The notes below the pieces were generated by a model. That model was not told the DNA's origin, ran no database searches, and saw only the letters and a program-made list of their open reading frames with translations. Positions 14,070 through 62,414 of a stretch of 64,000 bases of DNA are shown here, piece by piece. Each line of letters starts with the position of its first letter. Positions within the stretch are counted from its first letter, which is position 1. The position numbers were made by a program, and so were the translations under genes. The stretch comes from Anadara kagoshimensis (lineage: Eukaryota; Mollusca; Bivalvia; Arcoida; Arcidae): contig CM037868.1 of assembly GCA_021292105.1 (NCBI GenBank), positions 30,412,821-30,476,820 on the forward strand, in the 5' to 3' direction.

Positions 14070-14075
14070 TTTATT
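14070..14075 (-). terminator. Candidate polyadenylation signal for glycine-rich copy 4
   Basis: Minus-strand AATAAA about 180 nt after the ancestral stop position, as in copies 2 and 3. Confidence 0.4.
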
Positions 14076-15109: not shown

Positions 15110-15132
15110 CTGTAATGTAGATAAGGATAAAA

Positions 15133-15951: not shown

Positions 15952-15952
15952 G

Positions 15953-21664: not shown

Positions 21665-21803
21665 CCCTGCGTTTAGCCCGATTGAATGTATAAAATCAAA
21701 TTCCGATATCAGATACAGGCAAGCACGCATTTTTGCACACTCTGCCATATCCTATGTATGAAGGACAAGATCTACATATAACCTTGGCAATTAAGAATAC
21801 TAT

Positions 21804-31832: not shown

Positions 31833-31976
31833 CTATATCCGCCATTTTCCCCCACAATTGTCATTACACAAGTTGCTATTACAGCACTTTCTACAGTAAT
31901 TCGTTGATCTCTTCACAACTGAAAACTGGTCCCTTTTCTTACGACCAAATATGTCTGGATTTGTCGGGTCGCAAAC
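31833..31976 (-). CDS. Ly6-type gene, exon 8: domain 2 C-terminal part and stop
   Basis: Acceptor TTTTTGTCACAG, phase 0, 47 codons and TAG. Encodes YCRKCCNSNLCN near its end, equivalent to the CC-x4-CN signature of exon 5, then CGGKWRI. The RKKRD and VVKR stretches upstream are basic; a possible processing site is only speculation. The polypyrimidine tract of this acceptor is the edge of the 74-bp array. Confidence 0.85.
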   Translation of the reverse strand, partial: VCDPTNPDIFGRKKRDQFSVVKRSTNYCRKCCNSNLCNDNCGGKWRI

Positions 31977-34900
31977 CTGTGACAAAAATAAGGTATAACA
32001 TTGGATAAATCTCCGGACATTGACTCCCGTGATTGTATTGTGGTACTATACACAAAAATAAGGATATAACATTGGATAAATCTCCGGACATTGACTCCCG
32101 TGATTGTATTGTGATACTATACACAAAAATAAGGATATAACATTGGATAAATCTCCGGACATTGACTCCCGTGATTGTATTGTGATACTATACACAAAAA
32201 TAAGGATATAACATTGGATAAATCTCCGGACATTGACTCCCGTGATTGTATTGTGATACTATACACAAAAATAAGGATATAACATTGGATAAATCTCCGG
32301 ACATTGACTGATCCCGTGATTGTATTGTGATACTATACACAAAATAAGGATATAACATTGGATAAATCTCCGGACATTGACTGATCCCGTGATTGTATTG
32401 TGATACTATACACAAAAATAAGGATATAACATTGGATAAATCTCCGGACATTGACTGATCCCGTGATTGTATTGTGGTACTATACACAAAATAAGGATAT
32501 AACATTGGATAAATCTCCGGACATTGACTGATCCCGTGATTGCATTGTGATACTATACACAAAAATAAGGATATAACATTGGATAAATCTCCGGACATTG
32601 ACTGATCCCGTGATTGCATTGTGATACTCACAAAAATAAGGATATAACATTGGATAAATCTCCGGACATTGACTCCCGTGATTGTATTGTGGTACTATAC
32701 ACAAAAATAAGGATATAATTGGATAAATCTCCGGACATTGAATCCCGTGATTGTATTGTGGTACTATACACAAAAATAAGGATATAACATTGGATAAATC
32801 TCCGGACATTGACTCCCGTGATTGTATTGTGATACTATACACAAAAATAAGGATATAACATTGGATAAATCTCCGGACATTGACTGATCCCGTGATTCTA
32901 TTGTGATACTATACACAAAAATAAGGATATAACATTGGATAAATCTCCGGACATTGACTGATCCCGTGATTGTATTGTGGTACTATACACAAAAATAAGG
33001 ATATAACATTGGATAAATCTCCGGACATTGACTGATCCCGTGATTGTATTGTGGTACTATACACAAAAATAAGGATATAACATTGGATAAATCTCCGGAC
33101 ATTGACTGATCCCGTGATTGTATTGTGGTACTATACACAAAAATAAGGATATAACATTGGATAAATCTCCGGACATTGACTGATCCCGTGATTGTATTGT
33201 GGTACTATACACAAAAATAAGGATATAACATTGGATAAATCTCCGGACATTGACTGATCCCGTGATTGTATTGTGGTACTATACACAAAAATAAGTATAA
33301 CATTGGATAAATCTCCGGACATTGACTGATCCCGTGATTCTATTGTGATACTATACACAAAAATAAGGATATAACATTGGATAAATCTCCGGACATTGAC
33401 TGATCCCGTGATTGTATTGTGGTACTATACACAAAAATAAGGATATAACATTGGATAAATCTCCGGACATTGACTGATCCCGTGATTGTATTGTGGTACT
33501 ATACACAAAAATAAGGATATAACATTGGATAAATCTCCGGACATTGACTGATCCCGTGATTGTATTGTGGTACTATACACAAAAATAAGGATATAACATT
33601 GGATAAATCTCCGGACATTGACTCCCGTGATTGTATTGTGATACTATACACAAAAATAAGGATATAACATTGGATAAATCTCGGACATTGACTGATCCCG
33701 TGATTGTATTGTGGTACTTTACACAAAAATAAGGATATAACATTGGATTAATCTCCGGACATTGAATCCCGTGATTGTATTGGGGTACTATACACAAAAA
33801 TAAGGATATAACATTGGATAAATCTCCGGGCATTGACTCCCGTGATTGTATTGTGATACTATACACAAAAATAAGGATATAACATTGGATAAATCTCCGG
33901 ACATTGACTGATCCCGTGATTGTATTGTGATACTATACACAAAAATAAGGATATAACATTGGATAAATCTCCGGACATTGAATCCCGTGATTGTATTGGG
34001 GTACTATACACAAAAATAAGGATATAACATTGGATTAATCTCCGGACATTGACTGATCCCGTGATTGTATTGTGGTACTATACACAAAAATAAGGATATA
34101 ACATTGGGTAAATCTCCGGACATTGACTCCCGTGATTGTATTGTGATACTATACACAAAAATAAGGATATAACATTGGATAAATCTCCGGACATTGACTT
34201 CCGTGATTGTATTGTGATACTATACACAAAAATAAGGATATAACATTGGATAAATCTCCGGACATTGAATCCCGTGATTGTATTGTGGTACTATACAGGC
34301 ATAACTATACAACAGATATAACTATTTCATAAATAAAATTCGTATAGATTCTTAAAATGTAACAAGAGCAACGTCTTGAAAGACAAATACCCCCGTCCCC
34401 TGCGACCAGACAAACAAACAGACTAACAGACGGACGGACGGACGGACGGGCATTGAATTGGTCATGCGACAGATCGCCTCATGTTGTTATGTGTCAAGTT
34501 TGACCAAAATCCGTCTAAAGACATAGGAGATATGGAGCGGACACGATATTAGGACGGACGACCTAAAGTTGTTTTGGGGAAGGGGGGTGTTAATTATTCT
34601 TTTTGACAGTAAATCTACGGCGACACGTGTAAAATATCTTTATATTGCGTGCGCAGGCATAGGCATAGAGTTCTTAGCATTCGCTTGAACACGCAATATA
34701 GCTTTCCGTGAGCACCCAATATAAATATATTTGTCAGCCGTAATACAATCAACACAAATTCGTGTAAATATGTTGATTTTATTTTGGTTTCATTTTGACA
34801 GTGAAGTATATCTACTTACGTGTCGCTGAACACATTTACTTGTAAACAACCTCATGTGGAACAAAATCTTCTCATCAATGTAACAAACCTGTAAATATTT

Positions 34901-37900
34901 ATTTATTTATTTATTTATATATATATATATATTTTTTTCGTCATTTTTGTTCTGCTAGATATTATATTTTTCTTGCATCCCAGATTAAAAAATCAGTCAA
35001 AAAAGAGTCGCGGAAGATATCTCTATCTGCACCCACTGTGCAAGATAACCTACAAGATCTTTTCCCGCCAAGAATATTAATGAAATCAGAAGTGTTCTGA
35101 ACTAAGTATAGTAGAACTGAGTCGGATTTAAATTTCCCTATCTGGTTCTACGTACTAAAAGTATTGATATAGATTAGGCCTATAGAAATACTATTTACAT
35201 CTTTGCATTGCCATACCACTTACTCGGTACCCAAAGTCTATAATACTGACTTAGGCTTAATCCATATAATTTCAGTCCAGTTATAGTCCATATAATTTCA
35301 GTCCAGTTATAGTCCATATAATTTTTGTTCATTTATAGTCCATATCATTTTTGTTCATTTATAATCCATATAATTTCAGTCCATTTATAGTCCATATCAT
35401 TTCAGTCCATTTATAGTCCATATCATTTTAGTCCATTTATAGTCCATAACCTTTCAGTCCATTTATAGTCAATAACATTTCAGTCTAATTATAGTTCATA
35501 TCATTTCAGTCCATTTATAGTCCATATCATTTCAGTCCAGTTATAGTCAATTCTATTTCAGTCCATTTATGGTCCATATCATTTCAGTCCTGTTAAAGTC
35601 CATATTATTTCAGTCCATTTATAGTCCATACCATTTCAATCCAGTTATAGTCAATTCTATTTCAGTCCATTTATGGTCCATATCATTTCAGTCCTGTTAA
35701 AGTCCATATTATTTCAGTCCATTTATAGTTCATATCATTCCCGTCCATTTATTATTTATATCATTCCCGTCCATTTATAATTTATATCATTCCTGTCCAT
35801 TTATAGTCCATATCATTTCAGTCCATTTATAGTCCATATCATTTCAGTCCATTTATGGTCAATATCATTTCGGTCCATTGATAGTCCTTATCATTTCCGT
35901 TCATTTATAGTCCATATAATTTCAGTTCATTTATAGGTCATATCTTTTTTGTTTATTTATGATCCATATCATTTCAGTCCGCTTAAAGTCCATATGATTT
36001 CGGTCCATTTATAGTCCATATCATTTTTGTTCATTTAGTCCATATAATTTTATATATATTTTAGTTATTAAAGTATTAACAGAAATGGATTACACTCAGT
36101 TGTCTCTAAAAAATTATTACTGAAAATTTTTTATTGTTTCTTAATAAAATATATTTATAATCAACCGGCCTAATATGCACTTTAGGCTTCCATAATATAT
36201 AGTTTGCTATAATCCAGCTTTACTGAGAAAAATTTCACAATTTTTGCAATGGTGAAAAATTAACAAAGTCTATTTACTCCGCCTTTTTCCCATGTAAGGC
36301 ATAATGATAGTTCATGACCTTTTTTCATCATATAACCAGTTTATTATGCAAGGAAGACTAATCAACCATGTGCTGTCCTGTATTAAGGCCACATCAAATC
36401 AAGTTCTGTTTAATGTTATTTTACCATAATGCATTAGATGGGAAAATGCTTATATATGAGCAAGTAGAGGGGAGTTAGGTATGTATCTGGAATTCATTTT
36501 TTTAATTCTCAGAAATATTTTATATATATACATCTCAAACCTAATACTACCTTTTTACCCCTAGCTTAATTAAGCAATTGATTAAAAAACAATTAGTGAT
36601 ACGCTGATGCTTTTGTAAACAGTTAAAAATAAACATGTATAAATTGCATTCACTTCAAATGCAAGTCATTTTGCAATTTACTTGACAGTTGTTGGATCTA
36701 TGTTACTCTCTCCATAACCTTATACACAGGTGTTTATTTTCCTTTGGCCTCATTTTGGTGTCATCAAGCTTCTGTCCAGTCTATAAGTCAATCATCTGTG
36801 ACACCTTTTAAACTTTGAATGAAACTCATAGTAAAAAGGGTTGGGTTTGTCATAAGAGGTGGAGTCAAAAACTTAGATTTTTTCAGCTTGAACATTTTTG
36901 ACAAAAATGTACACTATACAGAGGCAAAGTCTCAAGCGATAAAAAACTCAAACCATTATGATAAATTAGGCCGTGTCTTGTTATATACACAGCCAAATTT
37001 CTGTTTCTCAACTTCAACTGGTTTTTGAGAAAAATCCATAAAACTAAGTGTAATCCATTTCTGATTATACTTTTTTTAGATGTATTTGTTTTCCTGCTTA
37101 TATAGACCAATTTCATACAAATTGCAGTTTTTAACCTTTTTTTATAAAAAGGAAAATCGTCAGTTCTTCTTCTATCATTAAATATAAAAAGGACAAAACG
37201 TCAGTTTTTCTTCTATCATTGAATATAAAAAGGACAAACGTCAGTTCTTTATCTATCATTGAATATAAAAAGGACAAACGTCAGTTCTTTATCTATCATT
37301 GAATATAAAAAGGACAAACGTCAGTTCTTCTTCTATCATTAAATATAAAAAGGACAAACGTCAGTTCTTCTTCTATCATTAAATATAAAAAGGACAAACG
37401 TCAGTTCTTCTTCTATCATTAAATATAAAAAGGACAAACGTCAGTTCTTCTTCTATCATTAAATATAAAAAGGACAAACGTCAGTTCTTCTTCTATCATT
37501 AAATATAAAAAGGACAAAACGTCAGTTTTTCTTCTATCATTGAATATAAAAAGGACAAACGTCAGTTCTTTATCTATCATTGAATATAAAAAGGACAAAC
37601 GTCAGTTCTTTATCTATCATTGAATATAAAAAGGACAAACGTCAGTTCTTCTTCTATCATTAAATATAAAAAGGACAAACGTCAGTTCTTCTTCCATCAT
37701 TAAATATAAAAAGGACAAACGTCAGTTTTTCTTCTATCATTGAATATAAAAAGGACAAACGTCAGTTCTTTATCTATCATTGAATATAAAAAGGACAAAC
37801 GTCAGTTCTTTATCTATCATTGAATAAAAAGGACAAACGTCAGTTCTTCTTCTATCATTGAATATAAAAAGGACAAACGTCAGTTCTTCTTCTATCATTA

Positions 37901-40900
37901 AATATAAAAAGGACAAACGTCAGTTCTTCTTCTATCATTGAATATAAAAAGGACAAACGTCAGTTCTTTATCTATCATTGAATATAAAAAGGACAAACGT
38001 CAGTTCTTCTTCTATCATTGAATATAAAAAGGACAAACGTCAGTTCTTTATCTATCATTGAATATAAAAAGGACAAACGTCAGTTCTTCTTCTATCATTG
38101 AATATAAAAAGGACAAACGTCAGTTCTTCTTCTATCATTAAATATAAAAAGGACAAACGTCAGTTCTTCTTCTATCATTGAATATAAAAAGGACAAACGT
38201 CAGTTCTTTATCTATCATTGAATATAAAAAGGACAAACGTCAGTTCTTCTTCTATCATTAAATATAAAAAGGACAAACGTCAGTTCTTCTTCTATCATTG
38301 AATATAAAAAGGACAAACGTCAGTTCTTTATCTATCATTGAATATAAAAAGGACAAACGTCAGTTCTTCTTCCATCATTGAATATAAAAAGGACAAACGT
38401 CAGTTCTTCTTCTATCATTAAGTATAAAAAGGACAAACGTCAGTTCTTCTTCTATCATTAAGTATAAAAAGGACAAACGTCAGTTCTTCTTCTATCATTA
38501 AATATAAAAAGGACAAACGTCAGTTCTTCATCTATCATTAAGTATAAAAAGGACAAACGTCAGTTCTTCTTCCATCATTAAATATAAAAAGGACAAACGT
38601 CAGTTCTTCTTCTATCATTAAGTATAAAAAGGACAAACGTCAGTTCTTCTTCTATCATTGAATATAAAAAGGACAAACGTCAGTTCTTTATCTATCATTA
38701 AGTATAAAAAGGACAAACGTCAGTTCTTCTTCTATCATTAAGTATAAAAAGGACAAACGTCAGTTCTTCTTCCATCATTAAATATAAAAAGGACAAACGT
38801 CAGTTCTTCTTCTATCATTGAATATAAAAAGGACAAACGTCAGTTCTTCATCTATCATAAAATATAAAAAGGACAAACGTCAGTTCTTCTTCTATCATTA
38901 AGTATAAAAAGGACAAACGTCAGTTCTTCTTCTATCATTAAGTATAAAAAGGACAAACGTCAGTTCTTCATCTATCATAAAATATAAAAAGGACAAACGT
39001 CAGTTCTTCTTCTATCATTAAGTATAAAAAGGACAAACGTCAGTTCTTCTTCTATCATTAAGTATAAAAAGGACAAACGTCAGTTCTTCATCTAGCATTA
39101 AGTATAAAGAGGACAAACGTCAGTTCTTCTTCTATCATTAAATATAAAAAGGACAAACGTCAGTTCTTCTTCTATCATAAAATATAAAAAGGACAAACGT
39201 CAGTTCTTCATCTAGCATTAAGTATAAAGAGGACAAACGTCAGTTCTTCTTCTATCATTAAATATAAAAAGGACAAACGTCAGTTCTTTCTTCTATTATT
39301 AAGTATAAAAAGGACAAACGTCAGTTCTTCATCTATCATTAAGTATAAAAAGGACAAACGTCAGTTCTTCATCTATCATTAAGTATAAAAAGGACAAACG
39401 TCAGTTCTTCTTCTATCATAAAATATAAAAAGGACAAACGTCAGTTCTTCTATCATTAAATATAAAAGGACAAACATCAGATCTTCTTCTATCATAAAAT
39501 ATAAAAAGGACAAACGTCAGTTCTTCTTCTATCATTAAGTATAAAAAGGACAAACGTCAGTTCTTCTTCTATCATTAAGTATAAAAAGGACAAACGTCAG
39601 TTCTTCTTCTATCATAAAATATAAAAAGGACAAACGTCAGTTCTTCTTCTATCATTAAATATAAAAAGGACAAACGTCAGTTCTTCATCTATCATTAAAT
39701 ATAAAAAGGACAAACGTCAGTTCTTCTTCTATCATTAAATATAAAAAGGACAAACGTCAGTTCCTCTTCTATCATTAAGTATAAAAAGGACAAACGTCAG
39801 TTCTTCTTCTATCATTAAATATAAAAAGGACAAACGTCAGTTCTTCATCTATCATTAAATATAAAAGGACAAACGTCAGTTCTTCTTCTATCATTAAGTA
39901 TAAAAAGGACAAACGTCAGTTCTTCTTCTATCATAAAATATAAAAAGGACAAACGTCAGTTCTTCTTCTATCATTAAGTATAAAAAGGACAAACGTCAGT
40001 TCTTCTTCTATCATAAAATATAAAAAGGACAAACGTCAGTTCTTCTTCTATCATTAAATATAAAAAGGACAAACGTCAGTTCTTCATCTATCATTAAATA
40101 TAAAAAGGACAAACGTCAGTTCTTCTTCTATCATAAAATATAAAAAGGACAAACGTCAGTTCTTCTTCTATCATTAAATATAAAAAGGACAAACGTCAGT
40201 TCTTCATCTATCATTAAATATAAAAAGGACAAACGTCAGTTCTTCTTCTATCATTAAATATAAAAAGGACAAACGTCAGTTCTTCTTCTATCATTAAGTA
40301 TAAAAAGGACAAACGTCAGTTCTTCTTCTATCATTAAATATAAAAAGGACAAACGTCAGTTCTTCTTCTATCATTGAATATAAAAAGGAAAAAACGTCAG
40401 TTCTTCTTCTATCATTAAATATAAAAAGGACAAACGTCAGTTCTTCTTCTATCATTGAATATAAAAAGGACAAACGTCAGTTCTTCTTCTATCATTAAAT
40501 ATAAAAAGGACAAACGTCAGTTCTTCTATCATTGAATATAAAAAGGACAAACGTCAGTTCTTCTTCTATCATTGAATATAAAAAGGACAAACGTCAGTTC
40601 TTCTTCTATCATTAAATATAAAAAGGACAAACGTCAGTTCTTCTATCATTGAATATAAAAAGGACAAACGTCAGTTCTTCTTCTATCATTAAATATAAAA
40701 AGGACAAACGTCAGTTCTTCTTCTATCATTAAGTATAAAGAGGACAAACGTCAGTTCTTCTATCATTGAATATAAAAAGGACAAACGTCAGTTCTTCTAT
40801 CATTAAATATAAAAAGGACAAACGTCAGTTCTTCTTCTATCATTAAATATAAAAAGGACAAACGTCAGTTCTTCTTCTATCATTAAATATAAAAAGGACA

Positions 40901-43282
40901 AACGTCAGTTCTTCTATCATAAAATATAAAAAGGACAAACGTCAGTTCTTCTTCTATCATTGAATATAAACGACTGAAAGACTGGATCAAACCAAATAAT
41001 TAACACGCTTTACTTTCTAAACAACCTCGATAACAAAATGTGCGTCACTTCCGGTTGTGCAGACTGAGACTACCAAAGGGAGACAACTTCGTTTTCTCTA
41101 TAATTGGAAGATTTTATTTTCAGTTTAAAAAAGTGGATTTTTTAAAGACATAATTTTCTTCAAAATAAATATTATTATATTAAACTTTTCGGAAAATAAC
41201 ATAATAGAAAAACCTTTTCGGTAATCGTTGACCTTTAACAAAAGTTTCTACTAACGGCTAGTGAAAACTTTTTGCTTACTGACAACCCTTGGGATGGCTT
41301 TAATTAAAACATTCGCTATAAGAACTTACTCGTCGTCGTCACATGCCTTTATTTTATCACAATTTCGTGGATCGTTGACATTTTCACAGTCCATACACAC
41401 AGCACCAACATCAAACGGATAGCCTGAAACGTAAAGTGCAAACTGTTAGTTGTCTGGGGACAAACAGTGTCCAAGGTGTGTGTGTGTGTGTGTGTGAAAT
41501 TTAAACAATTTCGTATACCTTGTGAATGACTTATATATTGTACTAAAAGGATTTTAACCCATTTTACAACTTTTTACAATTGAAAAAAAACAAGATATTG
41601 ACATAATCATTGCTATGATCTTTTGTTATTTCTAGATTTGACCTGATGACCTTGACCCTTGACCTATACACTTACATTTGGTATACGACCCATAGTCTCA
41701 TGTTGGTTTATATTTGCTCTAAGTTTGATAAAAATCCACGGTAGTGAGGCGGGCAATCAGAATGACTCACATATACTTAACTTCGTTTGCGAGGGTTGGG
41801 GTTATAAAATTTATAAAAACATTTATATTTTGTTAAACGGTCTAAAGAACCGTAGGGATATCGTATAACGTTAGTTAAACTCAACTCAATTTTGTATTTT
41901 GTAGAATTAAGCGGCAAAGTGACTGACCTAAGCGGCAAAGTGACTGACTTACGCGGCAATGTGACTGACCTTAGCGGCATTGTGACTGACCTTAGCGGCA
42001 AAGTGACTGACTTGAGCGGCAAAGTGACTGACCTAATCGGAAATGCGACTGGCTTAAGCGGCAAAGAGACTTACTTAAGCGGCAATGAGACTGACTTAAG
42101 CGGCAAAGTGACTGAACTTAGCGGAAAAGTGACTGACTTAAGCGACAATGTAACTGACTTACGCGGTAATGTGACTTACTTAAGCTCAATGTAACTGACC
42201 TAAGCGGCAATGAGACTGACTTAAGCGTCAATGTGACTGACCTAAGCGTCAAAGTGACTGACCTAAGCGGCAATATGACTGACTTACGCGTCAGTGTATC
42301 TGACTTACGCGGCAATGTGACTGATCTAAGCGGCAATATGACTGAATTAAGCGGTAATGTGACTGACTTAAGCGTCAATGTGACTGGCCTAAGCGGAAAT
42401 GTGACTGACCTAAGCGGCAATATGACTGATTTAAGCGCCAATGTGACTGACTTACGCTGTAATGTGAGTGACCTTAGTGGCAATATGACTGAATTAAGCG
42501 GCAATGTGACTGACTTAAGCGTCAATGTGACTGGCCTAAGCGGAAATATGACTGAATTAAGCGGCAATGTGACTGACTTACGCGGTAATGTGACTGACTT
42601 AAGCGGCAGTGTGACTGACTTACGCGGCAATGTGACTGACCTAAGCGGCAATATGACTGAATTAAGCGGCAATGTGACTGACTTAAGCGTCAATGTGACT
42701 GACCTAAGCGGCAATATAACTGAATTAAGCGGCAATGTGACTGACTTACGCGGTAATATGACTGACTTAAGCGTCAGTGTAACTGACTTAAGGGGCAATG
42801 TGACCTTAGTGGCAACGTGACTGATTTAAGCGCCAATGTGTCTGACCTAAGCGGCAATGTGACCTTAGTGGCAACGTGACTGATATTACAGATATTACCT
42901 AATTGTCCACATCCGGCGGCATTACAGATGTCATTTTGACAACATTCATGACACAGTGTTGTATAAGTAGATGAGGTTTGTCCTGATCTGCTGGTCTTTG
43001 ACAAAGTTTTTCGGTTTCCAAAGTCGGTACATGTCTGAAATATTTATAAGGTCCGAAAACAATCATATCACAACCAGGTGTCTGACAATGTATCTGACAT
43101 GTGAAAACAACAAGTCAACAATTGTAGAAATATACGAGCTATGACCCTGGCGTTCGATTAGGGCCTTATAGATTTGATAAACATGGTTCTAGTTTCACAG
43201 TTTAATTACATGGATATCTTAAAAACTAGAAATGAAATTAATTGCTTCAGACATGATTTTTTATTTAATTTTTCAATTTAAT

Positions 43283-43338
<56 letters not shown>

Positions 43339-49300: not shown

Positions 49301-52300
49301 AGATGGAGACAGCTAAATATAAGTAATGATCAATCTAGAATGTATAGGCTGAATTCATGATAATTTAATTGGCGTATCATCAGTAGAGGGAGGAGACGGA
49401 GACAGCTAATATAAGTAATGATCAACCTAGAATGTATAGGCTGAATTCATGATAATTTAATTGGTGTATCATCAGAAGAGGGAGGAGACGAGGACAGATA
49501 AATATAAGTAATGATCAACCTAGAATGTATAGGCTGAATTTATGATAATTTAATTGGTGTATCATCAGTAGAGGGAGGAGACGGAGACAGCTAAATATAA
49601 GTAATGATCAACCTAGAATTTATACATGTAGGCTGAATTCATGATAATTTAATTGGCGTATCATCAGAAGAGGGAGAGGACGGAGACAGCTAAATATAAG
49701 TAATGATCAACCTAGAATGTATAGGCTGAATTCATGATAATTTAATTGGTGTATCATCAGAAGAGGGAGGAGACGGAGACAGCTAAATATAAGTAATGAT
49801 CAACCTAGAATGTATAGGCTGAATTCATGATAATTTAATTGGTGTATCATCAGAAGAGGGAGGAGACGGAGACAGCTAAATATAAGTAATGATCAACCTA
49901 GAATATAGGCTGAATTCATGATAATTTAATTGGTGTATCATCAGAAGAGGGAGGAGACGGAGACAGCTAAATATAAGTAATGATCAACCTAGAATGTATA
50001 GGCTGAATTCATGATAATTTAATTGGTGTATCATCAGAAGAGGAAGGAGACAGGGACAGCTGAATATAAGTGATGATCAATCTAGAATGTATAGGCTGAA
50101 TTCATGATAATTTAATTGGTGTATCATCAGAAGAGGGAGAGGACGGAGACAGCTAAATATAAGTAATGATCAACCTAGAATGTATAGGCTGAATTCATGA
50201 TAATTTAATTGGTGTATCATCAGAAGAGGAGGAGACAGGGACAGCTAAATATAAGTGATGATCAATCTAGAATGTATAGGCTGAATTCATGATAATTTAA
50301 TTGGCGTATCATCAGTAGAGGGAGAGACGGAGACAGCTAAATATAAGTAATGATCAACCTAGAATGTATAGGCTGAATTCATGATAATTTAATTGGTGTA
50401 TCATCAGAAGAGGGAGGAGACGGAGACAGCTAAATATAAGTAATGATCAACCTAGAATTTACATGTAGGCTGAATTCATGATAATTTAATTGGCGTATCA
50501 TCAGAAGAGGGAGAGGACGGAGACAGCTAAATATAAGTAATGATCAACCTAGAATGTATAGGCTGAATTCATGATAATTTAATTGGTGTATCATCAGAAG
50601 AGGGAGGAGACGGAGACAGCTAAATATAAGTAATGATCAACCTAGAATGTATAGGCTGAATTCATGATAATTTAATTGGTGTATCATCAGAAGAGGGAGG
50701 AGACGGAGACAGCTAAATATAAGTAATGATCAACCTAGAATGTATAGGCTGAATTCATGATAATTTAATTGGTGTATCATCAGAAGAGGAAGGAGACAGG
50801 GACAGCTAAATATAAGTGATGATCAATCTAGAATGTATAGGCTGAATTCATGATAATTTAATTGGTGTATCATCAGAAGAGAGAGAGACGGAGACAGCTA
50901 AATATAAGTAATGATCAACCTAGAATGTATAGGCTGAATTCATGATAATTTAATTGGTGTATCATCAGAAGAGGAAGAGACAGGGACAGCTAAATATAAG
51001 TGATGATCAGTCTAGAATGTATAGGCTGAATTCATGATAATTTAATTGGCGTATCATCAGTAGAGGGAAGGACGGAGACAGCTAAATATAAGTAATGATC
51101 AACCTAGAATGTATAGGCTGAATTCATGATAATTTAATTGGGTATCATCAGAAGAGGAAGAGACAGGGACAGCTAAATATAAGTAATGATCAGTCTAGAA
51201 TGTATAGGCTGAATTCATGATAATTTAATTGGCGTATCATCAGTAGAGGGAGAGGACGGAGACAGCTAAATATAAGTAATGATCAACCTAGAATGTATAG
51301 GCTGAATTCATGATAATTTAATTGGTGTATCATCAGAAGAGGAAGGAGACGAGGACAGATAAATATAAATAATGATCAACCTAGAACGTATAGGCTGAAT
51401 TCATGATAATTTAATTGGCGTATCATCAGTAGAGGGAGGAGACGGAGACAGATAAATATAAATAATGATCAACCTAGAACGTATAGGCTGAATTCATGAT
51501 AATTTAATTGGCGTATCATCAGTAGAGGGAGAGGACGGAGACAGATAAATATAAGTAATGATCAACCTAGAACGTATAGGCTGAATTCATGATAATTTAA
51601 TTGGCGTATCATCAGTAGAGGGAGAGGACGGAGACAGCTAAATATAAGTAATGATCAACCTAGAATGTATAGGCTGAATTCATGATAATTTAATTGGTGT
51701 ATCATCAGAAGAGGGAGGAGACGGAGACAGCTAAATATAAGTAATGATCAACCTAGAATGTATAGGCTGAATTCATGATAATTTAATTGGCGTATCATCA
51801 GTAGAGGAGAGGACGGAGACAGCTAAATATAAGTAATGATCAACCTAGAATGTATAGGCTGAATTCATGATAATTTAATTGGCGTATCATCAGTAGAGGG
51901 AGAGGACGGAGACAGCTAAATATAAGTAATGATCAACCTAGAATGTATAGGCTGAATTCATGATAATTTAATTGGTGTATCATCAGAAGAGGGAGAGGAC
52001 GGAGACAGATAAATATAAATAATGATCAACCTAGAATGTATAGGCTGAATTCATGATAATTTAATTGGCGTATCATCAGTAGAGGGAGGAGACGGAGACA
52101 GATAAATATAAATAATGATCAACCTAGAACGTATAGGCTGAATTCATGATAATTTAATTGGCGTATCATCAGTAGAGGGAGGAGACGGAGACAGATAAAT
52201 ATAATAATGATCAACCTAGAACGTATAGGCTGAATTCATGATAATTTAATTGGCGTATCATCAGTAGAGGGAGGAGACGGAGACAGATAAATATAATAAT

Positions 52301-55300
52301 GATCAACCTAGAACGTATAGGCTGAATTCATGATAATTTAATTGGCGTATCATCAGTAGAGGGAGAGACGGAGACAGATAAATATAAATAATGATCAACC
52401 TAGAACGTATAGGCTGAATTCATGATAATTTAATTGGCGTATCATCAGTAGAGGGAGAGGACGGAGACAGATAAATATAAGTAATGATCAACCTAGAACG
52501 TATAGGCTGAATTCATGATAATTTAATTGGTATCATCAGTAGAGGGAGGACGGAGACAGCTAAATATAAGTAATGATCAACCTAGAATGTATAGGCTGAA
52601 TTCATGATAATTTAATTGGTGTATCATCAGAAGAGGGAGGAGACGGAGACAGCTCAAATATAAGTAATGATCAACCTGAATGTATAGGCTGAATTCATGA
52701 TATTTAATTGGCGTATCATCAGTAGAGGAGGAGACGGAGACAGATAAATATAAATAATGATCAACCTAGAACGTATAGGCTGAATTCATGATAATTTAAT
52801 TGGCGTATCATCAGTAGAGGGAGAGGACGGAGACAGATAAATATAAGTAATGATCAACCTAGAACGTATAGGCTGAATTCATGATAATTTAATTGGCGTA
52901 TCATCAGTAGAGGGAGAGGACGGAGACAGCTAAATATAAGTAATGATCAACCTAGAATGTATAGGCTGAATTCATGATAATTTAATTGGCGTATCATCAG
53001 TAGAGGAGAGGACGGAGACAGCTAAATATAAGTAATGATCAACCTAGAATGTATAGGCTGAATTCATGATAATTAATTGGTGTATCATCAGTAGAGGGAG
53101 GAGACGGAGACAGCTAAATATAAGTAATGATCAACCTAGAATGTATAGGCTGAATTCATGATAATTTAATTGGCGTATCATCAGTAGAGGGAGGAGACAG
53201 CTAAATATAAGTATGATCAACTATAGAATGTATACATGTAGGCTGAATTCATGATAATTTAATTGGCGTATCATCAGTAGAGGGAGGAGACGGAGACAGC
53301 TAAATAAGTATGATCAACCTAGAATATATAGGCTGAATTCATGATAATTTAATTGTGTATCATCAGAAGAGGGAGGAGACGAGGACAGCTAAATATAAGT
53401 AATGATCAACCTAGAACGTATAGGCTGAATTCATGATAATTTAATTGGTGTATCATCAGAAGAGGGAGGAGACGAGGACAGCTGAATATAAGTGATGATC
53501 AACCTAGAATGTATAGGCTGAATTCATGATAATTTAATTGGTGTATCATCAGAAGAGGGAGAGGACGGAGACAGCTAAATATAAGTAATGATCAACCTAG
53601 ATGTATAGCTGAATTCATGATAATTTAATTGGTGTATCATCAGAAGAGGGAGGAGACGAGGACAGCTAATATAAGTGATGATCAACCTAGAATGTATAGG
53701 CTGAATTCATGATAATTTAATTGGTGTATCATCAGAAGAGGGAGAGGACAGAGACAGCTAAATATAAGTATTGATCAATCTAGAATGTATAGGCTGAATA
53801 CATGATAATTTAATTGGTGTATCATCAGAAGAGGGAGAGGACGGAGACAGCTAAATATAAGTAATGATCAACCTAGAATGTATACATGTAGGCTGAATTC
53901 ATGATAATTTAATTGGCGTATCATCAGTAGAGGGAGGAGACGAGGACAGCTAAATATAAGTAATAATCAACCTAGAATGTATAGGCTGAATTCATGATAA
54001 TTTAATTGGTGTATCATCAGTAGAGGGAGGAGACGGAGACAGCTAATATAAGTAATGATCAACCTAGAATGTATAGGCTGAATTCATGATAATTTAATTG
54101 GTGTATCATCAGTAGAGGGAGGAGACGGAGACAGCTAAATATAAGTAATGATCAACCTAGAATGTATAGGCTGAATTCATGATAATTTAATTGGCGTATC
54201 ATCAGAAGAGGGAGGAGACGGAGACAGCTAAATATAAGTAATGATCAACCTAGAATGTATAGGCTGAATTCATGATAATTTAATTGGTGTATCATCAGTA
54301 GAGGGAGGAGACGGAGACAGATAAATATAAGTAATGATCAATCTAGAATGTATAGGCTGAATTCATGATAATTTAATTGGTGTATCATCAGAAGAGGGAG
54401 GAGACGAGGACAGCTAAATATAAGTAATGATCAACCTAGAATGTATAGGCTGAATTCATGATAATTTAATTGGTGTATCATCAGTAGAGGGAGAAGATGG
54501 AGACAGCTAAATATAAGTAATGATCAACCTAGAATGTATAGGCTGAATTCATGATAATTTAATTGGCGTATCATCAGAAGAGGGAGGAACGGAGACAGCT
54601 AAATATAAGTAATGATCAACCTAGAATGTATAGGCTGAATTCATGATAATTTAATTGGTGTATCATCAGTAGAGGGAGGAGACGGGGACAGCTAAATATA
54701 AGTAATGATCAACCTAGAATGTATAGGCTGAATTCATGATAATTTAATTGGTGTATCATCAGTAGAGGGAGGAGACGGAGACAGCTAAATATAAATAATG
54801 ATCAACCTAGAATGTATACATGTAGGCTGAATTCATGATAATTTAATTGGCGTATCATCAGAAGAGGGAGGAGACGAGGACAGCTAAATATAAGTAATGA
54901 TCAACCTAGAATGTATAGGCTGAATTCATGATAATTTAATTGGTGTATCATCAGAAGAGGGAGGAGACGAGGACAGATAAATATAAGTAATGATCAACCT
55001 AGAATGTATAGGCTGAATTCATGATAATTTAATTGGTGTATCATCAGTAGAGGGAGGAGACGGAGACAGCTAAATATAAGTAATGATCAACCTAGAATGT
55101 ATACATGTAGGCTGAATTCATGATAATTTAATTGGCGTATCATCAGAAGAGGGAGAGGACGGAGACAGCTAAATATAAGTAATGATCAACCTAGAATGTA
55201 TAGGCTGAATTCATGATAATTTAATTGGTGTATCATCAGAAGAGGGAGGAGACGGAGACAGCTAAATATAAGTAATGATCAACCTAGAATGTATAGGCTG

Positions 55301-58300
55301 AATTCATGATAATTTAATTGGTGTATCATCAGTAGAGGGAGGAGACGGGGACAGCTAAATATAAGTAATGATCAACCTAGAATGTATAGGCTGAATTCAT
55401 GATAATTTAATTGGTGTATCATCAGTAGAGGGGAGACGGAGACAGATAAATATCAGTTAAGATCAACCTAGAATGTATAGGCTGAATTCATGATAATTTA
55501 ATTGGCGTATCATCAGAAGAGGGAGGAGACGGAGACAGCTAAATATAAGTAATGATCAACCTAGAATGTATAGGCTGAATTCATGATAATTTAATTGGTG
55601 TATCATCAGTAGAGGGAGGAGACGGGGACAGCTAAATATAAGTAATGATCAACCTAGAATGTATAGGCTGAATTCATGATAATTTAATTGGTGTATCATC
55701 AGTAGAGGGAGGAGACGGAGACAGCTAAATATAATAATGATCAACCTAGAATGTATACATTAGGCTGAATTCATGATAATTTAATTGGCGTATCATCAGA
55801 AGAGGGAGGAGACGAGGACAGCTAAATATAAGTAATGATCAACCTAGAATGTATAGGCTGAATTCATGATAATTTAATTGGTGTATCATCAGAAGGGAGG
55901 AGACGGAGGACAGCTAAATATAAATAATGATCAACCTAGAATGTATACATGTAAGCTGAATTCATGATAATTTAATTGGTGTATCATCAGAAGGGAGGAG
56001 ACGGAGACAGCTAAATATAAGTAATGATCAATCTAGAATGTATAGGCTGAATTCATGATAATTTAATTGGTGTATCATCAGTAGAGGGAGGAGACGGAGA
56101 CAGCTAAATATAAGTAATGATCAACCTAGAATGTATAGGCTGAATTCATGATAATTTAATTGGTGTATCATCAGAAGAGGGAGGAGACGGAGACAGCTAA
56201 ATATAAGTAATGATCAACCTAGAATGTATAGGCTGAATTCATGATAATTTAATTGGTGTATCATCAGAAGAGGGAGGAGACGGAGACATCTAAATATAAA
56301 TAATGATCAACCTAGAATGTATAGGCTGAATTCATGATAATTTAATTGGTGTATCATCAGAAGAGGGAGGAGACGGAGACAGATAAATACAAGTAATGAT
56401 CAACCTAGAATGTATAGGCTGAATTCATGATAATTTAATTGGTGTATCATCAGAAGAGGAAGGAGACAGGGACAGCTAAATATAAGTAATGATCAACCTA
56501 GAATGTATAAGCTGAATTCATGATAATTTAATTGGTGTATCATCAGTAGAGGGAGAAGATGGAGACAGCTAAATATAAGTAATGATCAATCTAGAATGTA
56601 TAGGCTGAATTCATGATAATTTAATTGGCGTATCATCAGTAGAGGGAGGAGACGGAGACAGCTAAATATAAGTAATGATCAACCTAGAATGTATAGGCTG
56701 AATTCATGATAATTTAATTGTGTATCATCAGAGAGGGAGGAGACGAGACAGATAAATATAAGTAATGATCAACCTAGAATGTATAGGCTGAATTCATGAT
56801 AATTTAATTGGTGTATCATCAGTAGAGGGAGGAGACGGAGACAGCTAAATATAAGTAATGATCAACCTAGAATGTATACATGTAGGCTGAATTCATGATA
56901 ATTTAATTGGCGTATCATCAGAAGAGGGAGAGGACGGAGACAGCTAAATATAAGTAATGATCAACCTAGAATGTATAGGCTGAATTCATGATAATTTAAT
57001 TGGTGTATCATCAGAAGAGGGAGGAGACGGAGACAGCTAAATATAAGTAATGATCAACCTAGAATGTATAGGCTGAATTCATGATAATTTAATTGGTGTA
57101 TCATCAGTAGAGGGAGGAGACGGGGACAGCTAAATATAAGTAATGATCAACCTAGAATGTATAGGCTGAATTCATGATAATTTAATTGGTGTATCATCAG
57201 TAGAGGGAGGAGACGGAGACAGATAAATATCAGTTAAGATCAACCTAGAATGTATAGGCTGAATTCATGATAATTTAATTGGCGTATCATCAGAAGAGGG
57301 AGGAGACGGAGACAGCTAAATATAAGTAATGATCAACCTAGAATGTATAGGCTGAATTCATGATAATTTAATTGGTGTATCATCAGTAGAGGGAGGAGAC
57401 GGGGACAGCTAAATATAAGTAATGATCAACCTAGAATGTATAGGCTGAATTCATGATAATTCAATTGGTGTATCATCAGTAGAGGGAGGAGACGGAGACA
57501 GCTAAATATAAATAATGATCAACCTAGAATGTATACATGTAGGCTGAATTCATGATAATTTAATTGGCGTATCATCAGAAGAGGGAGGAGACGAGGACAG
57601 CTAAATATAAGTAATGATCAACCTAGAATGTATAGGCTGAATTCATGATAATTTAATTGGTGTATCATCAGTAGAGGGAGGAGACGGAGACAGCTAAATA
57701 TAAATAATGATCAACCTAGAATGTATACATGTAAGCTGAATTCATGATAATTTAATTGGTGTATCATCAGAAGAGGGAGGAGACGGAGACAGCTAAATAT
57801 AAGTAATGATCAATCTAGAATGTATAGGCTGAATTCATGATAATTTAATTGGTGTATCATCAGTAGAGGGAGGAGACGGAGACAGCTAAATATAAGTAAT
57901 GATCAACCTAGAATGTATAGGCTGAATTCATGATAATTTAATTGGTGTATCATCAGAAGAGGGAGGAGACGGAGACAGCTAAATATAAGTAATGATCAAC
58001 CTAGAATGTATAGGCTGAATTCATGATAATTTAATTGGTGTATCATCAGAAGAGGGAGGAGACGGAGACATCTAAATATAAATAATGATCAACCTAGAAT
58101 GTATAGGCTGAATTCATGATAATTTAATTGGTGTATCATCAGAAGAGGAAGGAGACAGGGACAGCTAAATATAAGTGATGATCAATCTAGAATGTATAGG
58201 CTGAATTCATGATAATTTAATTGGTGTATCATCAGAAGAGGAGGAACGGAGACAGATAAATACAAGTAATGATCAACCTAGAATGTATAGGCTGAATTCA

Positions 58301-60813
58301 TGATAATTTAATTGGTGTATCATCAGAAGAGGAGGAGACAGGGACAGCTAAATATAAGTAATGATCAACTAGAATGTATAGGCTGAATTCATGATAATTT
58401 AATTGGCGTATCATCAGAAGAGGGAGGAGACGGGAGACAGCTAATATAAGTATTGATCAATCTAGAATGTATAGGCTGAATTCATGATAATTTAATTGGT
58501 GTATCATCAGAAGAGGAAGGAGACAGGGACAGCTAAATATAAGTGATGATCAATCTAGAATGTATAGGCTGAATTCATGATAATTTAATTGGTATCATCA
58601 GAAGAGGAAGGAGACAGGGACAGCTAAATATAAGTGATGATCAATCTAGAATGTATAGGCTGAATTCATGATAATTTAATTGTGTATCATCAGAAGAGGG
58701 AGAAGACGGAGACAGCTAAATATAAGTGATGATCAATCTAAAATGTATAGGCTGAATTCATGATAATTTAATTGGCGTATCATCAGAAGGGGAAGGAAAC
58801 AGGGACAGCTAAATATAAGTGATGATCAATCTAGAATGTATAGGCTGAACCCAATAAAGCAAAGAAAATGCCCTTTACAAAAAGTCGACTTAAATGGAGT
58901 TTACATAGATTTAATAATTATATAAATATTTTCATATTTTGTATGTATAGTTAAATATGAATTCCATTTTACCTATTTGATATAAGTGAAATAATTTTGA
59001 CTTAGACGGAAAACCCCAATCAATCAATCAATCAATCAATTAATCAAATCAATCAATCAATCTCTGGTATTCTTCTGAACTTTCTCATACTAGTATTGCT
59101 TCCATATAAATAGTAATGAATTGCCAAAACATTGTGAACAGTAAAATCGAGTTACCTCCCCTGGACCACAAGTGGTAATGTAGTTGCACAGTATCGGGCT
59201 AAAAGCTTCATTGCATCGTAAACATCTCAAACCTAAAAAATAACAGCAATAAAAAAAAACCAAACAATATAAGTGATAAATAGTGATAAATGTCTGATGG
59301 ACTCGGATATCTGTGATAACTCATTTACCTCTGATGGACTCGGATATCATTTCATTATCTCTGAGGAATTCGGATATCTCTCATTACTCATTTATCTCTG
59401 AGGGACTCGGATATTTCTTCTGACTCATTCATTCTTTTTCTTTTACTAAAGTTCAAATTAATTGTTAATAATAAAAAGGTCAGTGTAGATTTGGAGAAAT
59501 TTCAATATACAAAACAACTGGTAAAGATTATTATATGAATAAAATAAAATAAAATAAAATAAAATAAAATAAAATAAAATAAAATAAAACAAAAATGTAG
59601 GAATGACAGAAATTCTGGACGTATTAAAATGGCCGCCGGGGACGATTATATAGACTTACCTGAAGTAACTGAAACGGCACTCAGCGATATTAACACAAAC
59701 GCTGAAACAGAAAGAAACATAAAAAATCACAGATTAATATACCTCTTACCAAGACTCCATTATACCCGGCTCACTGTCTCTAAATTTAGTAAACACTCAG
59801 CAATAATATTTAAAACAATGAATAAATACTTTTTACAAAACTATATACAAATGTTATAAGATTGAAGTAAAACGACACCTTTTAAATTTCCCGAGTATCT
59901 TTACAATTAACAATATTATAAACATTTCCAGTTTACAAATTCCTGGTCAAGATTGTAAAACTGGAGCTAGAAACGCGAAAGTGATATGACCTTTATATCG
60001 CATTGCTTACCTTTGGGTGTCCGCAGATGAAACATAAAAAATCAAAATCCGCGAAAATATTGGTTATTGGTTGGCTATGTCATATACCATTTTTTGAATG
60101 TATTTTCTGATTAAATTTAAAAAAATGGTATATGACAGCTAGATCAGTGTTTTGCGTCCAAGATTATTCCACTTATTTCGAGGTGGCATTGTAGAGGAAG
60201 CCGGACCGTAATTGTCCGCAAATTGTCGAACGTAGACATAAGCCTCATACGAGAGAATTTTGAATCTAGCCGGCGATCCGAATAGCTTTCAAACATTTAC
60301 GATTGAAAACAATAATTTCATCATAGCGTGGAACGTTTTAAACTTAAACATGTGTCATATACCATTTTTTGAATGTATTTTATGATTAAATTCAAAAAAT
60401 GGTATATGACACATGTAAACAACTCGTCGATATCTCCCTTATTTCGGCATGAATTTTTATAAAATTTTCGCATTAAGTCATATTTCAGTATGGAGAATAA
60501 CATATGTAAAAATCAAAAATCGTTACAGGTACTCTTTAATACTCGTTTGTTTATTTATCTAACGTTTGTAAATTAACAAAAGTCAAATTGATAGTTACAT
60601 CATACCAATAATTAGATTTCGTACCAAGAGTCTGTGACAACATTACTTACCGTACAAATACCATCAAATAGGCGATTAATTATGGTACATTTTAATGAAA
60701 CGTGGTAACTTGATAAATAATCAGAAAAATAACTTAATAAGTAAATATAAATAAATAAATAAATAAATAAATAAATTTCGTCTCTTACCTGTGAGAAGTT
60801 TCATCTTGAACAT
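31833..60813 (-). CDS. Secreted two-domain Ly6/uPAR-type (three-finger) protein gene, eight exons over 29 kb
   Basis: Eight exons can be joined with GT..AG sites and consistent phases, except at the exon 6 donor. They are: 60789-60813, 59660-59701, 59156-59232, 43459-43530, 42899-43034, 41330-41423, 34820-34888 and 31833-31976. The product is about 219 residues. It starts with a signal peptide (exons 1-2) and has two domains, each from an exon triplet (3-4-5 and 6-7-8). Each domain has 12 cysteines in the same order, opens with C-x2-C-x8-C-x5-C and closes with a CC-x4-CN motif, the Ly6/uPAR hallmark. No C-terminal hydrophobic GPI signal is seen, so a secreted protein is likely. Members of this fold act as receptors, modulators or binding proteins; this one's partner is unknown. 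Introns are nearly filled by satellites. Exon 6 appears to lack one G at its donor, so domain 2 is out of frame in this assembly. Confidence 0.82.
31990..34297. repeat. 71/74-bp satellite, about 31 units, in intron 7 of the Ly6-type gene
   Basis: Units contain GGATATAACATTGGATAAAT, CTCCGGACATTGACT and CACAAAAATAAGG. Two size classes differ by the presence of GAT in TGACTGATCCCG. On the gene's strand each unit includes CCTTATTTTTGTGTATAG, close to the true exon 8 acceptor. Minus-strand open frames are repeat artefacts. Confidence 0.95.
34340..34620. mobile_element. Dispersed repeat with GACGGACGGACGG and AAGTTTGACCAAAATCCG motifs
   Basis: Contains AACAAGAGCAACGTCTTG, a (GGAC)n run (about 34430-34450), CAAGTTTGACCAAAATCCG and GGAGATATGGAGCGGAC. 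This motif order is familiar from short dispersed elements common in molluscan introns. Ends are not defined and no coding capacity is visible. Confidence 0.45.
34621..34819. other. Intron sequence, nothing recognised
   Basis: Single-copy AT-rich intron 7 sequence next to exon 7. ACGCAATATA and its near complement occur twice; no gene. Confidence 0.35.
34820..34888 (-). CDS. Ly6-type gene, exon 7: domain 2 middle part
   Basis: Acceptor TATTTACAG, 23 codons in phase 0, strong donor GTAAGTAG. Encodes VCYIDEKILF at the start and SKCVQRH at the end, the positional equivalents of ICGIEKV and GCKSTQ in exon 4. The frame given is fixed by these cysteines and by the downstream exon 8 phase. Confidence 0.75.
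34889..35260. other. Intron 6 sequence, nothing recognised
   Basis: AT-rich, with a TTTA/TA microsatellite at about 34897-34932. No exon-like open segment with splice sites is seen. Confidence 0.4.
35261..36050. repeat. 26-bp minisatellite, about 30 diverged units
   Basis: Units of the form CATTTCAGTCCATTTATAGT-CCATAT. More diverged than the other arrays in the window, suggesting an older array. It lies in intron 6 of the Ly6-type gene. Confidence 0.88.
36080..37063. mobile_element. Non-autonomous element with long imperfect inverted ends (about 984 bp)
   Basis: CAGAAATGGATTACACTCAG at the left end is matched by the reverse complement of the right end (CAGAAATGGATTACACTTAG). Patchy homology continues inward, for example CGGCCTAAT about 85-95 bp from both ends. 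The interior has no recognisable transposase; two short frames on opposite strands near 36.8-37.1 kb are not credible genes. No target-site duplication is obvious. Confidence 0.5.
37143..40970. repeat. 40-bp satellite, about 95 units, in intron 6
   Basis: Units contain ATATAAAAAGGACAAACG and TCAGTTCTTCTTCTATCATT. Each unit pairs a TATA-box-like TATAAAAAGG with an ACGTCA half-site 10 bp later. Unit variants (TTTATC, TTCATC, AAGTATA) are interspersed in blocks. Confidence 0.95.
40971..41329. other. Intron 6 sequence next to exon 6, nothing recognised
   Basis: Single-copy AT-rich sequence. GTCACTTCCGGTTGTG near 41044 resembles an ETS site; no exon was found. Confidence 0.35.
41330..41423 (-). 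CDS. Ly6-type gene, exon 6: domain 2 N-terminal part, donor one base short
   Basis: Acceptor CGTTTCAG; enters in phase 1, joining the G of exon 5 to give glycine. Encodes YPFDVGAVCMDC and a C-x8-C-x5-C run with the same spacing as exon 3, ending CDDDE. Exon 3 ends GAG|GTAACT in phase 0. Here the sequence is GACGAGTAAGT, so the consensus donor GTAAGT leaves only GA and shifts exon 7 by one base. One extra G would restore phase 0. Either the assembly lost a G or the second domain is disabled. Confidence 0.78.
41476..41496. repeat. (GT)n microsatellite
   Basis: About ten GT dinucleotides in intron 5. Confidence 0.9.
41600..41870. mobile_element. Dispersed repeat with TGACCTTGACC motifs
   Basis: TTGACCTGATGACCTTGACC followed by GTTGGTTTAT and AAGTTTGATAAAAATCCA. 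This is the same type of ending as the dispersed repeat at 34.5 kb and resembles short elements common in bivalve introns. No coding capacity; ends undefined. Confidence 0.4.
41905..42884. repeat. 21-bp minisatellite, about 46 units, in intron 5
   Basis: Units of the form GACTGACTTAAGCGGCAATGT. The 21-bp period is three codons times seven, so both strands have long frames; the plus-strand one reads as heptads of LSGNVTD type. The array starts about 10-15 bp inside the intron from the exon 5 donor. I treat the frames as artefacts. Confidence 0.92.
42899..43034 (-). CDS. Ly6-type gene, exon 5: domain 1 C-terminal part
   Basis: Acceptor ATATTTCAG, 45 codons and one base, donor GTAATAT. Encodes TCTDFGNRKTLSKTS and then LCHECCQNDICNAAGCG, which holds the CC-x4-CN signature. 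The phase-1 end matches the start of exon 6. Confidence 0.86.
43284..43338. repeat. (CT)n microsatellite, followed by (TA)n
   Basis: About 27 CT dinucleotides in intron 4; a short TA run follows at about 43348-43368. Confidence 0.93.
43459..43530 (-). CDS. Ly6-type gene, exon 4: domain 1 middle part
   Basis: Acceptor TTGTTTACAG, 24 codons in phase 0, donor GTAGGT. Encodes ICGIEKVRNENGN and YNLGCKSTQ, a common Ly6-type middle segment with one cysteine at the start and one before the end. The acceptor lies about 25 bp from the 93-bp array. Confidence 0.86.
43555..58849. repeat. 93-bp satellite, about 164 units, filling intron 3
   Basis: The largest array in the window, 15.3 kb. Units contain AATTTAATTGGCGTATCATC, GAGGGAGGAGACGGAGACAG, TAATGATCAACCTAGAATG and GGCTGAATTCATGAT. 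Nearly every unit has an EcoRI site (GAATTC) and a BclI-type TGATCA. A longer variant has ATACATGTAGG in place of ATAGG. Blocks of variants recur, for example 47.8-48.2 kb resembling 49.3-49.7 kb, so higher-order duplication has occurred. No coding meaning. Confidence 0.96.
58850..59155. other. Unique intron 3 sequence with (AATC)n
   Basis: AT-rich sequence with an AATC tetranucleotide run at about 59016-59061. No exon is seen between the array and exon 3. Confidence 0.5.
59156..59232 (-). CDS. Ly6-type gene, exon 3: domain 1 N-terminal part
   Basis: Acceptor ATTTTTTAG, two bases completing a glycine codon, 25 codons, donor GTAACT in phase 0. Encodes LRCLRCNEAFSPILC and NYITTCGPGE: C-x2-C-x8-C-x5-C. 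The LxCxxC right after the signal peptide is typical of mature Ly6-type proteins. Confidence 0.85.
59288..59432. repeat. Short degenerate tandem repeat, about 4 units of roughly 35 bp
   Basis: GATGGACTCGGATATC recurs four times with variations (GAGGAATTCGGATATC, GAGGGACTCGGATATT). It lies in intron 2. Confidence 0.75.
59537..59589. repeat. (AAAAT)n microsatellite
   Basis: About ten AAAAT pentanucleotides in intron 2. Confidence 0.9.
59660..59701 (-). CDS. Ly6-type gene, exon 2: signal-peptide core
   Basis: Acceptor TTCTGTTTCAG, strong donor GTAAGTC, 42 nt with phase 1 at both ends. Joined to exon 1 it encodes AFVLISLSAVSVTS, a hydrophobic core and small-residue cleavage region, and ends in the G of the next glycine codon. 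Phase and content fit both neighbours, which is why I prefer it over the antisense plus-strand frame here. Confidence 0.82.
59862..59966. mobile_element. Diverged relic of the inverted-repeat element seen at 1540-1830
   Basis: CACCTTTTAAATTT, TATCTTTACAATTAACAATA, TTATAAACATTT and GATTGTAAAACTGG occur in the order found in the right half of the element in the glycine-rich units. It lies in intron 1 of the Ly6-type gene. Confidence 0.4.
60011..60035 (-). other. Possible alternative first coding exon
   Basis: ATGTTTCATCTGCGGACACC..AAAG followed by donor GTAAGC. It is 25 nt long with a phase-1 end, exactly like exon 1, and lies between exon 1 and exon 2. It could splice to exon 2, but this may be chance. 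Confidence 0.2.
60078..60137. repeat. Hairpin element A
   Basis: TGTCATATACCATTTTTT and its reverse complement flank a short loop. It is almost identical to the hairpin at 60348-60416. Confidence 0.7.
60348..60416. repeat. Hairpin element B
   Basis: Perfect arms from ACATGTGTCATATACC to its complement, with a loop of about 15 bp. It forms a pair with 60078-60137, separated by 210 bp of unique sequence. Confidence 0.72.
60745..60777. repeat. (AAAT)n microsatellite
   Basis: About eight AAAT tetranucleotides just inside intron 1. Confidence 0.88.
60789..60813 (-). CDS. Ly6-type gene, exon 1: start codon
   Basis: Encodes MFKMKLLT plus one base before donor GTAAGAGA. The ATG context is CAAAATGT. 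Lysines followed by leucines suit the start of a signal peptide completed by exon 2. The transcription start is not defined; the 340 bp up to the tRNA gene hold the presumed promoter, where I see no clear TATA box. Confidence 0.75.
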
Positions 60814-62410: not shown

Positions 62411-62414
62411 TCCT

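Follow-up and report, generated by a model that had tools for sequence, protein, structure and literature searches.

Genes of the LU (Ly6/uPAR) family, as outlined in PMC6600238, consist of a signal exon and a typical two-exon domain set, which is generally flanked by phase-1 introns and is split by one intron at the loop 2 tip; multi-domain members repeat the exon set for each domain (PMC6600238). In Drosophila, the Y-linked genes kl-3 and kl-5 are described as having gigantic satellite introns, with megabases of simple repeats (e.g., (AATAT)n) that account for >99% of the locus (PMC6508621), and in Tribolium, dispersed TCAST satellite repeats are reported to be enriched in introns (PMC5844308). 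Given these Drosophila Y genes and Tribolium introns, satellite-filled introns are an already known kind of feature. In the Pacific oyster, satellite-like arrays of the Cg_HINE Helentrons are described as dispersed in the assembled genome, with some located in the non-coding parts of genes (PMC7492417).

The present analysis concerns a window of 64,000 nucleotides from Anadara kagoshimensis (the whole stretch of DNA that was analysed), in which a first-pass annotation had proposed a Ly6-type gene of eight tiny exons stretched over 29 kb of satellite DNA. Eight exons are predicted on the minus strand at 31833..60813, spread across ~29 kb of tandem-repeat DNA and sitting between the tandem arrays. 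The LU pattern, the splice borders, and the satellite content of that proposal were upheld, while the intact protein was not. The locus is, in our judgement, quite likely to be an animal gene, probably for a secreted double-LU (three-finger) protein, with introns lengthened in place by private arrays and a reading frame broken in this assembly. It is assigned to an animal on account of its domain types and its richness in introns. The predicted exons, in transcript order, are as follows:

Exon 1, 60789..60813, minus strand: ATG and the first part of a leader resembling a signal peptide; GTAAGA donor
Exon 2, 59660..59701, minus strand: hydrophobic core of the leader; TTTCAG acceptor and GTAAGT donor
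Exon 3, 59156..59232, minus strand: LU domain 1, cysteines 1-4; entered in phase 1 and left in phase 0, with a single frame open
Exon 4, 43459..43530, minus strand: LU domain 1, cysteines 5-6; both ends in phase 0
Exon 5, 42899..43034, minus strand: LU domain 1, cysteines 7-10, with CCQNDICN; CxxCC(4)CN signature
Exon 6, 41330..41423, minus strand: LU domain 2, cysteines 1-4; 94 nt, with an exit phase of 2 that is mismatched to exon 7
Exon 7, 34820..34888, minus strand: LU domain 2, cysteines 5-6; phase 0 is the only open frame
Exon 8, 31833..31976, minus strand: LU domain 2, cysteines 7-10, with CCNSNLCN, followed by the stop codon

Assembly of the stated exons into a minus-strand transcript showed GT/AG borders at all seven introns, with donors that begin GTAA at six of them. 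The joined exons code for an initial methionine, followed by a hydrophobic leader and then a cysteine-rich protein with two LU domains. Their lengths add up to 659 nt (25+42+77+72+136+94+69+144), not 660, and the frame across them is broken. From its appearance, the leader is a probable signal peptide and, together with the absence of a hydrophobic tail after domain 2, suggests that the product would be secreted. The gene was not revealed by a stop-to-stop ORF scan (at least 90 aa), as the first-pass annotation had noted, and exon 4 is the only exon found in its coding frame within a listed ORF (43273-43545, 90 aa). Genes of this type are readily missed, as every exon is <150 nt and is sandwiched by arrays. 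Downstream on the transcript strand, no AATAAA was found from the stop codon (31833) to 17104, and no ATTAAA from the stop codon until 21627, which lies inside a 41-bp array.

In the region upstream of the gene, a tRNA-Trp gene (CCA anticodon) was identified at 61151-61222 on the minus strand, ~340 bp from the start codon. A near-perfect palindrome of ~171 bp (61495-61665), in which 94% of 176 aligned positions are self-complementary, is perhaps a foldback or MITE-like element. In addition, a 110-aa open frame at 62101-62433 on the minus strand contains MSGHRSEASLRSYSR, a stretch resembling a tyrosine recombinase; a Pfam search of the frame to E 1 returned nothing.

Both domains carry the ten-cysteine pattern ending in CCx4CN, the motif with which LU domains end, and share one extra cysteine pair beyond the ten LU cysteines; the ten classical positions follow the CD59 numbering. 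Across the 17,435 non-array bases of the window, CxxCC(4)CN occurs twice, in exons 5 and 8, versus not once in 60 Markov resamples, and three sites match the pattern of cysteines 1-4, versus a mean of 0.05 in the resamples. Four of these five sites correspond to exons 3, 5, 6, and 8. The fifth, a four-cysteine site at 36636 on the plus strand, was rejected as an LU exon, being antisense to the gene within intron 6 and lacking the rest of a domain, and it looks like a chance match. No additional LU exons were found by pattern scans of the window, in which looser patterns also matched repeat DNA near 0.3 and 16 kb. A scan of a viral contig collection with the domain 1 pattern yielded 15 pattern matches, none of which was confirmed.

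The exon layout is likewise common to the two domains, comprising entry in phase 1, one junction between cysteines 4 and 5, and another just before cysteine 7. Exons 3 and 6 are both entered in phase 1, with the result that domain 1 is flanked by phase-1 introns on both sides, and domain 2 ends in the stop codon. The two internal junctions of domain 1 are in phase 0. In domain 2, the first internal junction, which was placed by alignment with domain 1, is the site of the frame break, and the second is a phase-0 junction when read in the frame shared by exons 7 and 8. Each domain thus contains two internal introns, not a single one at the tip of loop 2.

Pfam searches returned UPAR_LY6 as the top match for domain 1 (E 0.0087, 16.9 bits, profile 2-81 of 82) and for domain 2 (E 0.035, 15.0 bits, profile 5-81 of 82; the query was read across its break with X), as expected from the first-pass annotation, but both scores fall below the curated cut-off of 24.8 bits. 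The second match for each domain was the snake-toxin-like family Toxin_TOLIP (E 0.32 and 0.22, not significant), and exons 7-8 searched separately gave no LU match in Pfam, only an unrelated family at E 1.1. Among ten control shuffles in which the cysteines were preserved, none matched UPAR_LY6 and one matched an unrelated family at E 0.0042, indicating that E-values as large as these are not decisive by themselves. Alignment of domain 1 (exons 3-5) with domain 2 (exons 6-8) gave a BLOSUM62 score of 75, which full shuffling of domain 2 never reached in 2000 trials and which 27 of 2000 shuffles with its cysteines fixed did reach (best 94), suggesting that the cysteine pattern accounts for much of the similarity between the domains. 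Searches of the PDB yielded no chain at E up to 10 with a two-domain profile, and only an antibody heavy chain (E 0.45) with phmmer and exons 1-6.

The intact protein of 219 residues that had been proposed for this gene was rejected, as it is not encoded by the exons as assembled, which total 659 nt and do not form an open frame throughout due to a break at the exon 6/7 junction. In the literal join, the frame holds throughout exon 6 and shifts thereafter, soon meeting a stop. Testing of each exon in three frames revealed that exons 7 and 8 are open solely in phase 0, mismatched to the exit of exon 6. The splice alternatives considered comprised GT or GC donors at distances of up to ~395 nt from the exon 6 start, and AG acceptors in an interval running from 250 nt upstream of exon 7 to 60 nt within this exon. 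A total of 16 donor/acceptor pairs preserved the frame of exon 7 without a stop, and only two of them used a donor past cysteine 4 of domain 2, both losing the cysteine at the start of exon 7. None of the splice choices tested retained all ten core cysteines of domain 2, although a donor of non-standard type or a tiny exon that escaped notice might still bridge the break. Candidate sources of the break would be an assembly indel, a null allele, or a young pseudogene. Considering that there is one frame shift and the rest is intact, an assembly indel or a young null allele fits better than old decay, and an assembly indel or a recent loss-of-function allele is the most likely cause.

In addition to the exons, five intronic arrays and one array beyond the gene were delimited by Tandem Repeats Finder (TRF), with the aid of BLAST:

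43555..58849, intron 3: 93-bp satellite, ~164 copies, 93% matches (TRF); ends 24 nt from exon 4
41904..42883, intron 5: 21-bp satellite, ~46 copies (TRF, limits extended by BLAST); starts 15 nt after exon 5
37143..40970, intron 6: 40-bp satellite, ~96 copies (TRF)
35258..36050, intron 6: 26-bp satellite, ~30 copies (TRF, BLAST)
31982..34297, intron 7: 74-bp satellite, ~32 copies; the last copy supplies the polypyrimidine tract of exon 8
21798..31805, beyond the gene: 91-bp satellite, ~110 copies; begins 27 nt past the stop codon

The presence of five unrelated satellites of 0.8-15.3 kb in the introns, as claimed at first pass, was confirmed: the units differ (93, 21, 40, 26, and 74 bp), the arrays range from 0.79 to 15.3 kb, and no two units match each other over more than 15 bases. 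Each family is confined to one intron and was found nowhere else in the window. The five main arrays alone make up 80.0% of the gene span, and the merged TRF rows, in which microsatellites are counted, bring tandem repeats to 81.3% of 31833-60813 and to 73.3% of the window overall. Arrays form most of introns 3, 5, 6, and 7, and not of introns 1, 2, and 4. Neither AATAAA nor ATTAAA is present on the transcript strand of the 91-bp array, which has a high density of sequences resembling 5' splice sites, GTAAGT hexamers numbering 180 on its plus and 109 on its minus strand (21826-31805). Two satellite patterns gave no matches in the viral contig collection. In intron 6, the 26-bp array is separated from the 40-bp array by ~1 kb of unique DNA (36070-37073) bounded by a 32-nt inverted repeat (36070-36101 / 37042-37073, 91% complementary), which might be a small transposon between two arrays.

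Once limits had been extended by BLAST, three of the five intronic arrays stop close to an exon, at 5 nt in intron 7, 15 nt in intron 5, and 24 nt in intron 3; two of them abut acceptors and one abuts a donor. Both arrays of intron 6 lie >350 nt from any exon and fall outside this pattern. Compared with random placement within introns, for which 0.39 arrays are expected within 24 nt (P 0.003), 0.48 within 30 nt (P 0.006), and 0.80 within 50 nt (P 0.025), there is an excess of exon-abutting arrays, which is suggestive only because the threshold was picked after the data had been seen.

The closest contact between array and exon is at the acceptor of exon 8. On the transcript strand, the 74-bp unit includes CCTTATTTTTGTGTATAG, and intron 7 contains 29 CCTTATTTTTG tracts, 26 of which continue with TGTATAG, two of which are variants, and the last of which continues with TCACAG into exon 8. 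As this last tract runs into the exon, the exon 8 acceptor uses the final satellite copy as its polypyrimidine tract. Either the 74-bp satellite was amplified from the intron end, or the array expanded until it reached the splice signal. In front of exon 4, the final 24 nt lie outside the 93-bp satellite, and fusion of array and acceptor is therefore seen for one array only. It is conceivable, as a tentative and on balance unlikely generalization, that satellites in this genome are born at intron ends by tandem amplification of a short polypyrimidine-bearing segment, whereby introns would become chains of decoy 3' splice-site tracts in which the true acceptor is the last copy and growth would halt only where selection on the splice signal begins. 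A literature search of titles and abstract openings turned up no papers on arrays ending at splice acceptors, which is not proof of their absence from print. If the pattern were genome-wide, it would offer a way to follow intron lengthening by tandem amplification and to learn how the spliceosome chooses the last of ~30 near-identical acceptor tracts.

The region at 1-16 kb of the window is occupied by tandem copies of a glycine-rich exon (ALK/LTK GRD-like), three of them full:

1-194: end of a fourth glycine-rich exon copy
2934-3818, minus strand: full glycine-rich exon copy
9009-9896, minus strand: full glycine-rich exon copy
14379-15140, minus strand: full glycine-rich exon copy

The Pfam family ALK_LTK_GRD matched the middle full copy just above its cut-off (E 2.6e-05) and the other two below it (E 0.07 and 0.00048); in the first full copy it was outscored by Gly_rich_2 (E 0.036), and the third has a shorter open frame with a different end sequence. 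Outside the arrays, the single-copy segments of the three blocks show 89.6-94.5% pairwise identity, and over its 194 bases the partial fourth copy has 100% identity with the middle full copy, against 99.0% with the third and 94.8% with the first. Satellite families of 76, 54, and 69 bp recur across 195-15961, and a search of a genome contig collection with part of the 54-bp unit gave no matches. The 76-bp array beside each glycine-rich exon measures 230, 3168, 1200, and 831 bp (a 14-fold range), and within the blocks the 54-bp array measures 216, 270, and 108 bp (2.5-fold) and the 69-bp array 502, 145, and 1577 bp (11-fold). Exon ends that are identical across 194 bases adjoin 76-bp arrays of 230 versus 1200 bp. 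The occurrence of the same families at differing lengths beside near-identical exons indicates that array length turns over much faster than the surrounding DNA. Moreover, the 76-bp array halts ~21 nt upstream of TTACAG, taken as the acceptor, in all three full copies. The earlier view that introns such as those of the Ly6-type gene are unusual in kind was thus overstated, considering that 73% of the window is tandem repeat, that the glycine-rich neighbours are arranged likewise, and that the Drosophila Y introns described in PMC6508621 are far larger.

Read as a double-LU gene, the locus would comprise two tandem LU domains of three exons each, entered via a phase-1 intron, and its product may serve as an extracellular three-finger binding protein. 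Private tandem-repeat arrays would have grown in place within the introns via slippage or unequal exchange, reaching the minimal splice signals in three cases, and with the break at exon 6/7, domain 2 would be unmakeable from the assembled copy as written. Growth in place is supported by the confinement of each family to its intron, the merging of the last 74-bp copy with the acceptor, the arrays near exons, and the length differences among the neighbours. Points against this reading are the Pfam scores below cut-off, the missing LU match for exons 7-8 alone, the share of the domain similarity that is cysteine pattern, the PDB searches without a related chain, the two internal introns per domain versus the published one, the 10 kb downstream of the stop in which no common polyadenylation signal occurs, and the intron 6 arrays that do not abut exons.

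It is rather unlikely, yet the most credible of the alternatives, that the locus is a pseudogene in decay, which satellites overran because selection on intron size and splicing had ceased. The broken frame, the failure of every tested splice choice to keep the ten cysteines of domain 2, the array 27 nt past the stop, and the 10 kb free of common polyadenylation signals are all consistent with such decay. However, the remaining splice borders and frames are intact, with exons 7 and 8 open in the right frame, where more lesions would be expected from older decay, and the glycine-rich neighbours carry arrays by their apparent acceptors too, indicating that arrays are no mark of a dead gene here. 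That splice-like sites in AT-rich DNA were strung together into this gene model by chance, as its tiny exons and sub-threshold Pfam match might suggest, is very improbable, since the two CxxCC(4)CN signatures, versus none in the 60 resamples, both lie inside the model and the domains and phases match each other.

As to the origin of the arrays, it appears improbable that they were delivered by non-autonomous elements of the Helentron type (HINE/Pearl), which in oysters have tandem repeats at their centre. In Crassostrea gigas, the 13 most abundant satellite-like array clusters (49% of those detected) are all reported to lie within such elements, some of them inside genes (PMC7492417), and the 32-nt inverted repeat at both ends of the intron 6 unique DNA could be seen in the same light. 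Nevertheless, that repeat surrounds unique DNA and not an array (inverted repeats were sought in parts of intron 6), the arrays located 5, 15, and 24 nt from an exon leave no space for a terminal module on the exon side, and the single-copy intron segments match nowhere else in the window, save for repeats within the same intron. Helentron modules on both sides were rejected for the three exon-abutting arrays; such transport is possible for the two arrays of intron 6 and does not easily explain the others.

A double-LU gene with introns lengthened in place can be set beside the systems already described. Similar to the multi-LU genes outlined in PMC6600238 (LYPD3, PLAUR, and the two-LU zebrafish cluster), it has a leader encoded by separate exons, phase-1 entry, and a repeated exon set, whereas each of its domains contains two internal introns (phase 0) in place of the one at the loop 2 tip given there for published genes, and it further differs in the extra cysteine pair, the absence of a hydrophobic tail, and the broken frame. 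Like Drosophila kl-3 and kl-5 (PMC6508621), its coding sequence is split by introns that are mostly satellite, but here these span kilobases only, and each array has a separate unit of 21-93 bp. Unlike the Cg_HINE arrays, three of the five arrays leave no exon-side space for a terminal module, and in contrast to the TCAST repeats of Tribolium, described as mostly single repeats (PMC5844308), they are long and private. The gene itself, a probable double-LU protein gene apparently broken in the assembly, is an ordinary finding, and the locus is best read as a multi-LU gene of an ordinary kind, set in an animal genome that is rich in repeats.
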